Assembly (NCBI RefSeq): GCF_000013205.1 | Contig: NC_007775.1 | Location: 372,001 to 436,000, forward strand | Direction of reading: 5' to 3' | Length of the DNA stretch: 64,000 nt | Source: Synechococcus sp. JA-3-3Ab | GTDB taxonomy: Bacteria; Cyanobacteriota; Cyanobacteriia; Thermostichales; Thermostichaceae | In this document: in pieces, positions 11,654 through 18,457 of the stretch | How positions within the stretch are numbered: position 1 is the first letter of the stretch | Layout of the letters: each line of letters opens with the position of its first letter | Position numbers and translations under genes: made by a program | The notes under the pieces: model-generated | What the model was told of the DNA's origin: nothing | What the model saw: the letters and a program-made list of their open reading frames with translations, nothing else | Databases searched by the model: none

Positions 11654-11717
11654 TGGTGAGGAGTGAAGAGAAGAAGCCTCTGGGGTCGAAACACGGACAG
11701 ACGCCCAGAGGTTTTTT
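11654..11717 (+). ncRNA. Candidate small RNA (about 65 nt)
   Basis: The expected transcript from the promoter at 11619 begins near 11654 and ends in the T-run at 11712-11717. It has an unstructured purine-rich 5' part containing GGTGAGGAGTG and one strong terminator hairpin. The purine motif is the complement of the ACUCCUCAC core known from the cyanobacterial sRNA Yfr1, so it could pair with Yfr1 or simply resemble a Shine-Dalgarno sequence. A 20-codon GTG-initiated Arg-rich frame exists but has poor spacing to any ribosome-binding site. Alternatively the whole segment is only the DUF2993 3' end. Confidence 0.4.
11677..11717 (+). terminator. Intrinsic terminator
   Basis: CCTCTGGG (11677-11684) pairs with CCCAGAGG (11704-11711), followed by TTTTTT. 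This is a strong rho-independent terminator for the small RNA and/or the DUF2993 gene upstream. Confidence 0.8.
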
Positions 11718-11964
11718 CATGACCTGCTCAGCCTCAACGGGGACACCGCCATCCCTACCTAGCCTCCGAAGTTTTAACTATTCTCAACCACAGGGGATGG
11801 GGGACTTTTCCCAACACCCTGGCCTCTTGCCCCAATTGGGAAAAAGCCTGTCCCCCCAAACTGGCTACGACCCTTTGAATTCAGGCTGGGACATAGCACC
11901 TGCCACAACTTTTTTTGCTCGAAAAGGTTCCAAAGAGTCTCCCCTGAGCCTCAGGGGTCTTGGT
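11718..11964. other. Gene-free spacer with a hairpin
   Basis: No convincing coding frame on either strand. It contains C-rich and A-rich patches and the hairpin described next. Long frames crossing it on the plus strand run into the complement of the VOC gene and are shadows. Confidence 0.5.
11941..11957 (-). terminator. Probable terminator of the VOC gene
   Basis: CCCCTGA-GCC-TCAGGGG forms a perfect 7-bp hairpin starting 8 bases after the VOC gene's stop on the minus strand. The sequence after it (AGACTCTTTGG) is only weakly T-rich. Confidence 0.45.
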
Positions 11965-15548: not shown

Positions 15549-16073
15549 TCAGCCCAGAGAAGCCAAAGCCACAACGGCGCTGGTCAACCAGTTCAAGGAC
15601 AGGAGCCCGCCCAGGAAGGCCAACGGGATCAGACCCGCCAGGCGCCACCACTCCAGATCCAGCGCCACCGCTGCCGCCCGCACCTGCCAAACCACAAACC
15701 ACAACAGCGCCACGAACCCCAACAGGGATCCGGCCACTCCGCCCAAGGATTGGGCAGGTCCCAGCAGCAGCCAGGGCAGGCCAGCAAAGCCCGTCAGGCA
15801 GAGGAGCGACGCAAAAGAAGGGGCAGCCCGCCCAAAACAAAAGGCCAGCGCCTGCAGCAGGGCCGCCAGGCTTACCCATCCCAGGAAGCCTGCCAGCAGC
15901 GCCAGCACCATGCTCGGCAGGTTTACCCCGAAACGACGCACAGCCTCGAGAATGTTCAGCAGCGCCACCACCCCAAAAGCTTGCCAGAGAACAGGCTGTT
16001 GCCGCAGCGAGCGAAAGGTGGGCTCCGGCAGAAACCAAGCGCCGTAAATGTTATCCAACAAAGAGTCGAGCAT
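15549..16073 (-). CDS. Multi-helix membrane protein, Yip1-like
   Basis: The ATG at 16073 (MLDSLLDNIYGAWFLPEPTF) gives 174 residues. The N-terminal FLPEPTFRSLRQQP resembles Yip1-type proteins, followed by about five hydrophobic helices and Pro/Gly breaks. The function of bacterial Yip1-like proteins is not established. The open frame continues upstream to 16187 but that extension looks non-coding. It converges on the ferredoxin gene. Confidence 0.65.
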   Translation of the reverse strand: MLDSLLDNIYGAWFLPEPTFRSLRQQPVLWQAFGVVALLNILEAVRRFGVNLPSMVLALLAGFLGWVSLAALLQALAFCFGRAAPSFASLLCLTGFAGLPWLLLGPAQSLGGVAGSLLGFVALLWFVVWQVRAAAVALDLEWWRLAGLIPLAFLGGLLSLNWLTSAVVALASLG

Positions 16074-16180
16074 GGCCGGCAAAAAGTCGGTCTGCCCTCC
16101 TATCCTAGCCCAACGACAAGAGGGCTCCTCCAAAGCCAAGCAAATGCCGATCCCGTCCTTGGCAAAGCCCTGATGAGCAC

Positions 16181-16212
16181 TTGACAAGCACGGCCCGCAG
16201 ATGCGGTATGAT
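16181..16212 (+). promoter_or_regulatory. Probable promoter of the 6S-like RNA
   Basis: A -10 TATGAT at 16207-16212 lies 7 bases before the inferred RNA 5' end. TTGACA at 16181-16186 is a perfect -35 hexamer, but its 20-bp spacing is longer than usual, so the true -35 may be a weaker sequence. Confidence 0.5.
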
Positions 16213-16218
16213 GGGCTA

Positions 16219-16403
16219 AGGATTCTGAGGCGTTGGTGACTGCCGTTACGTTTTTGCGATCGATACCCTTCGACAATTAGGACGGGTGTGGATGTGAGAG
16301 CAGTAAGCCAAACTCGATTTGGAAACTATCGATAGTCATCCCCGATGTCCTACACTGGCTTTTCCAGGTCGAAAACCACGGTAAAACGGCGCAATAGGAT
16401 CCT
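16219..16403 (+). ncRNA. ssaA: 6S RNA candidate
   Basis: 6S RNA binds the sigma70-type RNA polymerase holoenzyme as a promoter mimic. The segment folds into one long interrupted hairpin. AGGAUUCU pairs with AGGAUCCU at the two ends, GCGUUG with CGGCGC, GCCGU with ACGGU, and GUUUUUG with CGAAAAC. A large central bubble follows, with a small hairpin CUGG-CUUUU-CCAG on its 3' side. Then AGGAC pairs with GUCCU and GGAUG with CAUCC below apical loops. This is the 6S layout. End-to-end length is 185 nt, the size I recall for Synechococcus PCC 6301 6S RNA. The identification is by structure only. Confidence 0.72.
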
Positions 16404-16404
16404 C

Positions 16405-16440
16405 AAGAAGGCTCTCGCTGGAGGGCCTTCTTGCTCTTAA
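16405..16440 (+). terminator. Terminator after the 6S-like RNA
   Basis: AAGAAGGC pairs with GCCTTCTT (16405-16412 with 16425-16432), followed by GCTCTT. It lies immediately after the closing stem of the 6S-like RNA. Confidence 0.7.
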
Positions 16441-16504
16441 TGGCTGCACGGGATCCCTCGTCAGGCAAGTTTTGAGGGGAGCTGAGGTGGTTGTGGGATG
16501 GGGG

Positions 16505-18457
16505 TTAGGCGGCCTGTTGTTTGGCCTGTTGGCAATTTTGAACGGCAGGGATGCGGCGCCAATTTAAGTTAGCAAGCACCAGGGCGCTGAGGGGACGGGT
16601 GTGAGCCAGCAGCCCGGCAAGGAGCAGCAGCCAACGGCTCAAGGCAGAGCCGGCCAACAGCCAATGGATGAGCAGAGCTGCCCCTCCTCCTTCTACCCCT
16701 GCCGCCAAGACCCAGGCCCAGGCAACTTTCCCATGCCGGGACAGGAGGATCCCTTGCAATCCACCGACGCCAAGCCCCACCAGCAAGCCACGCAGCGGGC
16801 TGGCCATCGCCTGCAAGGCGTTCTGCAGCCAGGGATCCCTGGGATCGAAAGCGAAGGTTGCCATCCCCGCCTCCAGGGTATCTGCTGCTACCCAACCCAA
16901 AGCCGTGGCCAGCAGCGTGGCCGCCACCCACCGCCAAGAGACCTGCCGCCGCAATACCGCCCACTGGAGTAGCCCCATCCCCAAGCCCAGGCCGGCCCCG
17001 GCCACCGCTCCTTGGAGCGAACCCAAAGCAGCCAGCAGGGGAGCTGCCGCCCCCAGCCCCAGATAGCCGATCCCAGCCGCCGCCCAATTGGCCAGGAGCC
17101 AGCCCAGGGCCAATCCTTTGCGCTGGCGGGGCTTGCCTGAGGTGGGGAGGGTGGGCTTCTGGTGGGGGCTAACCTGTTCCTGGCCGACCTGCTGTTCGAC
17201 CTCGCGCAGCCCCTGTTCTGCCGAGGGGTTACCCGGCTCCAGCCGCAGCACTCCTTGATAGTCCATCTGGGCAAGGCCCCAATGGCCCTGCCGCTGGTGG
17301 GCCAGGCCGCGGTATAGGTAGTAGCGGGCTTCGTTGGGGGCACTCTGGATCAGCTTGTTAAGCAGGTGGACAGCCATTTTGTATTCGCCTGCCTCGATCA
17401 AACGCACCGCCCGCTGCAGCTCTTCTTCCTCAGCTTCCGAAACAGGGGCGGCTCGGCTCTGCTGGGTGGCTTGCTGGCCAAAGCCGGCAGGGATCCGCTG
17501 CAGAGGAGCCTTTTGAGGGGGAGGCGGGATCTTGTCCCCATAGACGGCTCGGAGCTGCTGGGCCAGCTCCTCCATGGTGGCCGGGCGAAGGGCAGGGTCT
17601 TTCTCCAAGCAACGCAGCACCACCTTTTCTAGGGCCTCAGGGATGGGGTGGGGCAGCGGATGGTCTTGAAAAGGGCGGGGCTTTTGAAAGTTGTGGACGT
17701 GGTACCAGCCCTGCAGGGTGTCGGTCTCTGGCTCGAAGGGCAACGCACCGGTTAACAGCTCGTACAAAACCACCCCCAGGGAATAGATGTCGGAGCGGCC
17801 ATCCAGCTTCTCTCCCCGCATCTGCTCCGGCGAGGCATAGACCATCGTGCCCAAAAAATACCCGGTTTGCGTCAGGCCACGAGAGGTTTCCCCCATGAGT
17901 TTGGAAATGCCAAAGTCCAGGAGCTTGACCCGTTCTTTGCCATCGGGCCCTTTTTGCACAAAGATGTTGCTGGGCTTGATATCGCGGTGGATGACCCCTC
18001 GAATCGAGTGTTTGCCCAGATCCATGTGAAAGTTGTGGGCGTGGTGCAGGGCCGAGCAAATTTGCAAAGCCAAGTTCACCACCCGCTCTGGGTGCAGGGG
18101 ACCTTCCCGTGCCAACACATAGTCCAAGCCCTGGCCCGTGTAAGGCTTGGCCTTCAGGTACTCCATCACCAGGTAGGGCTGGTTTTGGTACAGACCGTAG
18201 GAGCGCACCTGCACAATGTTGGGGTGCTCGCCCAACAGGGCGCTGACCCTGGCCTCGTCCAGGAAGCGCTGCTGCAGTTGCTGGTAATACTCCGGCTCCA
18301 TGTCTGGCGGCGGCGGGCGCAACAACTTAACGGCCACCGGCTCGTCATTCAACTGGGTATCCACCGCCTCGAACACATTGCCGTAGCCACCCTCGCTGAT
18401 GTGGTGGGTCAGTCGGTAGCGGTTGCCGATCAGTTGTCCAATTAGGCGCTGGTTCAT
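16505..18457 (-). CDS. Membrane Ser/Thr protein kinase with TPR region
   Basis: A 650-residue Hanks-type kinase. The N-terminal catalytic domain (about 12-290) has the Gly loop ISEGGYGNVFEAV, the ATP-binding Lys in VAVKLLRP, the catalytic loop VIHRDIKPSNIF, the metal-binding DFG in LLDFGISK, and YASPEQM. A TPR-like region (about 345-410, AGEYKMAVHLLNKLIQSAPNEARYY) may bind partners. The C-terminal 200 residues hold about six hydrophobic helices. The substrates are unknown. It is divergent from the IMPase-like gene and downstream-facing to the 6S-like RNA. Confidence 0.9.
   Translation of the reverse strand: MNQRLIGQLIGNRYRLTHHISEGGYGNVFEAVDTQLNDEPVAVKLLRPPPPDMEPEYYQQLQQRFLDEARVSALLGEHPNIVQVRSYGLYQNQPYLVMEYLKAKPYTGQGLDYVLAREGPLHPERVVNLALQICSALHHAHNFHMDLGKHSIRGVIHRDIKPSNIFVQKGPDGKERVKLLDFGISKLMGETSRGLTQTGYFLGTMVYASPEQMRGEKLDGRSDIYSLGVVLYELLTGALPFEPETDTLQGWYHVHNFQKPRPFQDHPLPHPIPEALEKVVLRCLEKDPALRPATMEELAQQLRAVYGDKIPPPPQKAPLQRIPAGFGQQATQQSRAAPVSEAEEEELQRAVRLIEAGEYKMAVHLLNKLIQSAPNEARYYLYRGLAHQRQGHWGLAQMDYQGVLRLEPGNPSAEQGLREVEQQVGQEQVSPHQKPTLPTSGKPRQRKGLALGWLLANWAAAGIGYLGLGAAAPLLAALGSLQGAVAGAGLGLGMGLLQWAVLRRQVSWRWVAATLLATALGWVAADTLEAGMATFAFDPRDPWLQNALQAMASPLRGLLVGLGVGGLQGILLSRHGKVAWAWVLAAGVEGGGAALLIHWLLAGSALSRWLLLLAGLLAHTRPLSALVLANLNWRRIPAVQNCQQAKQQAA

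Follow-up and report, generated by a model that had tools for sequence, protein, structure and literature searches.

Does the stretch between a Yip1-domain membrane protein gene and a Ser/Thr protein kinase gene of Synechococcus sp. JA-3-3Ab encode a 6S RNA, and if so, of what kind? A first-pass annotation of the window (the whole 64,000-nucleotide piece of DNA analysed here, to which positions refer) had proposed an unannotated 6S RNA gene of 185 nt at this site. 6Sa RNA has been known in cyanobacteria since 1997, according to work cited in PMC1242208. Sequence comparison indicates that 16219-16404 (+) is a genuine 6S RNA gene of the ordinary kind, in a divergent cyanobacterial copy. The probability that this region is the sole chromosomal 6S RNA gene of the cyanobacterium, with the function of its family in the host, is put at about 0.97. 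What is less ordinary is small on both counts: a low model score, and a possible collapse helix of the central bubble that is conserved in the order.

A single 6S match below the curated cut-off

At Rfam gathering thresholds, a 6S search of the window returned no match. When an E-value threshold was applied, RF00013 (6S) aligned over its full length (model positions 1-187) to 16219-16404 (+) with 40.9 bits. In a search of the whole one-contig genome (2,932,766 bases, 2.93 Mb), this was the single RF00013 match, with an E-value of 8.2e-7, and no second 6S gene was found. The Infernal check suggested with the original proposal thus yields a significant full-length match with a sub-threshold score. 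The copy falls 5.5 bits short of the RF00013 gathering threshold of 46.4 bits, which is a curation cut-off and not a biological feature, and 11 of the 51 model pairs are non-standard or gapped in this strain. A score under the gathering threshold would explain omission of the gene from annotation. Furthermore, with the stricter filters of a phylum-wide search, Infernal loses this genome's own copy, showing how annotation can miss a 6S RNA; real cyanobacterial copies can be hidden by the Rfam cut-off.

Across the phylum, 172 of 194 genomes have a 6S match, above the cut-off in 98. A copy is present in each of the six genomes of the genus; the present strain scores lowest, and the five others exceed the cut-off, at 47.1-60.8 bits. 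Sequence identity of the RNA within the genus is 86-92% (160-171 of 186 positions), with a mean column identity of 94% in the genus alignment; it drops to 24-62% over the 21-nt upstream flank and to 18-47% over the 17-nt downstream flank. The proposed 6S RNA gene is upheld by this unique full-length match and its above-threshold orthologues, together with the covariation described below, and the point that this lineage possesses 6S RNA, a global transcription regulator, is settled.

In a relative of the same family (L067 and L078, G198:C119), Rfam gave no match, yet a 6S RNA was found in two DNA pieces. The apical loop of the L067 RNA carries a long extra stem (GTCTGGGCTCTGCCTGAGGC), which is also seen in L068 and, in shorter form, in L070.

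Gene layout and neighbourhood

The features of the locus are collected in Table 1. A scan for open frames found none of at least 60 aa crossing the RNA, in agreement with the earlier view that no protein is encoded, and the -10 box, the 3'-side mini-hairpin and a terminal stem starting at the expected base were likewise recovered, the Rfam alignment beginning one position before the stem. The RNA is 186 nt long by the model, within the range of about 180-200 nt for 6S RNA, and its -10 box and terminator hairpin are conserved, with both termini predicted.

Table 1. Features of the 6S RNA locus and its neighbours (window positions)
Feature	Position	Strand	Basis or remark
Yip1-domain protein gene	15549-16187	-	Longest frame from TTG 16187; probable ATG 16073
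TTGACA, -35-like hexamer	16181-16186	+	Perfect; 20 nt from -10; role doubtful
-10 box TATGAT	16207-16212	+	6 nt before 16219; invariant in five other genus genomes
6S RNA (ssaA/ssrS type), ~185 nt	16219-16404	+	RF00013 match
Closing stem	5' arm 16220-16233, 3' arm 16389-16402	+	Rfam alignment
Bubble-edge helix (5' strand UUU-CGAUC)	16253-16261, partner 16367-16375	+	GAUC/GGUC invariant in 42/42 sequences
Central bubble, 5' side; expected pRNA initiation site	16262-16278	+	Rfam structure position; pRNA start inferred only
Candidate collapse helix, UUCGAC with GUCGAA	16269-16274 with 16368-16373	+	RNAalifold (genus), duplex energy
Mini-hairpin, central bubble 3' side, CUGG-CUUUU-CCAG	16355-16367	+	Folding and helix 7 pairing
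Intrinsic terminator hairpin, weak T tract	16404-16433	+	Predicted energy; conserved in genus
Ser/Thr protein kinase gene with TPR signal	16505-18457	-	Downstream neighbour of 6S, opposite strand

The distance from TTGACA to the -10 box is an unusual 20 nt here and 15 nt in two relatives, so the spacing is unconserved. A scanner for sigma-70 consensus promoters called no promoter because of this 20-nt spacing. The claimed terminator is present as a hairpin, with a predicted energy of -22.5 kcal/mol for 16404-16442, though the T tract behind it is weak (TTGCTCTTAA), which accounts for the failure of a terminator scanner to call it.

The gene is free-standing within 16074-16504. Its upstream Yip1-domain neighbour is common to both genus members tested (L062, L065), as is the downstream kinase to the two tested on that side (L063, L065); in L062, the frame scanned on that side is CobD. 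Just beyond the genus, among its closest relatives, 6S is followed by a threonine synthase-like gene in L067 and L070 and preceded by DnaA in L068.

Elsewhere in the window, a Cyano-1 RNA (RF01701) matches 11657-11720 (+) with 47.8 bits against a cut-off of 41, about 830 bases upstream of an MreB-like gene. The 5' single-stranded consensus of Cyano-1, UGUGUGAGGAGU, looks complementary to what we take to be the core of the sRNA Yfr1, ACUCCUCACAC; only GAGGAGUG-like letters of this consensus are left in the present copy.

Covariation and predicted folding

Structural evidence was drawn from 42 cyanobacterial 6S sequences. Among the pairs derived from the Rfam structure, 33 have changes on both sides (shuffled mean 27.0), in 260 cells compared with 118.6 after shuffling. 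The covariation score is 0.307, against 0.159 for shuffled and 0.09-0.13 for slid structures; no shuffle matched the observed pair counts or score, and the shuffle control is inflated by the relatedness of the 42 sequences, the slid control less so. Eleven pairs with both-side changes lie in helix 1, the closing stem, and 93.6% of cells are paired in helix 7, the mini-hairpin. RNAalifold, to which no structure was supplied, finds the closing stem, the GAUC/GGUC bubble-edge helix and the apical helix, with 22 compensated pairs. In the present strain, an apical-stem pair (alignment A4, columns 65/131) has changed from UA to CG, a compensated change. Covariation thus keeps the closing stem, the central bubble and the terminal stem-loop.

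The minimum-energy fold of 16219-16403/16404 is about -65.8 kcal/mol (z -3.78), and 1 of 200 dinucleotide shuffles is as good. This unconstrained fold contains the 6S closing stem and two competing side hairpins; enforcing the 6S fold gives -47.9 kcal/mol against -65.9 for the free fold, 18 kcal/mol less stable. The 185-nt interrupted hairpin with a central bubble, as originally described, is borne out by homology and covariation, while the minimum-energy fold is not a single interrupted hairpin. Energy gaps of like size occur in other cyanobacterial 6S RNAs, and in most of the other 41 the predicted ensembles hardly contain the bubble-edge helix. As this helix is improbable in most other 6S RNAs too, the energy model is a poor arbiter here, and free-energy folding was rejected as a criterion for 6S identity; support for the 6S architecture comes from homology and covariation in the aligned sequences rather than from energy.

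Alternative explanations

The energy gap, together with the lowest score in the genus, is what would be expected of a 6S-derived RNA whose function has been lost or changed, for example by dominance of the stabler two-hairpin fold in this strain. However, the 94% column identity within the genus, the compensated apical pair in this very strain, the intact -10 box and terminator, and the comparable gaps among other cyanobacterial 6S RNAs all speak for a maintained RNA, making such a change very improbable. Chance resemblance to 6S in an unrelated structured RNA, for instance a riboswitch or 5' leader, would fit the score under the curated cut-off, but is contradicted by the E-value over the full model length, by orthologues above the cut-off and by covariation that follows the 6S structure. 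In addition, no same-strand gene follows for a leader to serve, the next being the kinase gene on the opposite strand, and this explanation is given virtually no weight.

Equally negligible is the reading as a long untranslated region belonging to the Yip1-domain gene. Its longest frame would reach the promoter, but the gene lies on the opposite strand with a probable start inside that frame, and its orthologues are about 184 aa even when read from stop to stop. A 6S RNA gene thus remains the preferred reading, and its identity, structure, conservation and single copy are direct results of the comparisons above.

Proposed mechanism and a candidate collapse helix

The -10 promoter would start an RNA of about 185 nt at 16219, to be ended by the terminator hairpin. 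By analogy with the family, from which polymerase binding, pRNA synthesis and the physiological role are inferred, its long interrupted duplex with a central bubble would mimic an open promoter and bind the housekeeping (SigA) RNA polymerase holoenzyme, shifting sigma-factor use under nutrient change. The 6S RNA would then be released when the polymerase makes a short pRNA that starts on the 5' side of the bubble, at an expected position within 16262-16266 by the Rfam alignment. In Synechocystis, 6S RNA binds E. coli RNAP in vitro, inhibits transcription and templates pRNA, and cells recovering from nitrogen starvation recruit SigA more slowly when its gene is deleted (PMC5721685).

Synthesis of pRNA may also free the GGUC strand for refolding. 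The UUCGAC/GUCGAA duplex has a predicted energy of -8.1 kcal/mol, with 4.3% of shuffles as good, and RNAalifold selects this pairing on the genus alignment. Within the family, the duplex is better than 95% of shuffles; L070, in the order and outside the family, narrowly misses this level (8%). The complementarity is also present in f20, a family of small genomes that, judged by size and sequence, resembles the Synechococcus/Prochlorococcus clade; there, the duplexes taken singly fall short of the 95% level against shuffles. Among 70 sequences, 19 have G at position 5 of the GGUC strand, and 13 of these have UCGA in the 5' bubble, compared with 2 of the 51 that lack this G; the counts ignore kinship and leave out 24 unparsed sequences, including most of the genus, and the co-occurrence is a lead only. 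Own-strand pairing beats swapped strands across cyanobacterial 6S RNAs (p 0.0003-0.0005, by a statistic that ignores phylogeny). The idea of a collapse helix shared by all cyanobacteria was rejected, as the 95% level was exceeded by just 11 of 42 sequences, most of them from the strain's own order. It is a tentative suggestion, which we consider somewhat doubtful, that 6S RNA of this order and, separately, of f20 carries a collapse helix, so that release may follow refolding of the Bacillus 6S-1 type. If true, the helix would provide, for a photosynthetic group, a release mechanism that can be tested.

Comparison with known 6S RNAs

The RNA resembles cyanobacterial 6S RNA (SsaA/6Sa; Yfr7 in marine strains) in length, closing stem, GAUC/GGUC bubble helix, 3' bubble-side mini-hairpin and apical helix, and differs in its lower model score and in UUCGAC in the 5' bubble. 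6S adjoins purK in Synechococcus PCC 6301, Synechocystis PCC 6803 and marine strains (PMC1242208). Upstream of 6S, purK was found in loci L002 and L037, and aroB in L039. Unlike the published ssaA loci and those of L002 and L037, the present one lacks purK adjacency: purK (C1:1777510-1778568) and 6S (C1:388219-388404) are 1.39 Mb apart. With the RF00013 6S/SsrS family (Escherichia coli type), the RNA shares alignment over the full model, departing from it in the non-standard or gapped pairs and the sub-threshold score. For Bacillus subtilis 6S-1, a collapse helix of the central bubble has been described and, in the free RNA, a small hairpin on the 3' side of the bubble (PMC8876501). The present RNA is alike in its small 3' bubble hairpin and in a possible collapse helix that would join the 5' bubble to the 3' strand of the helix next to it, whereas its sequence differs and its collapse helix is a predicted one.
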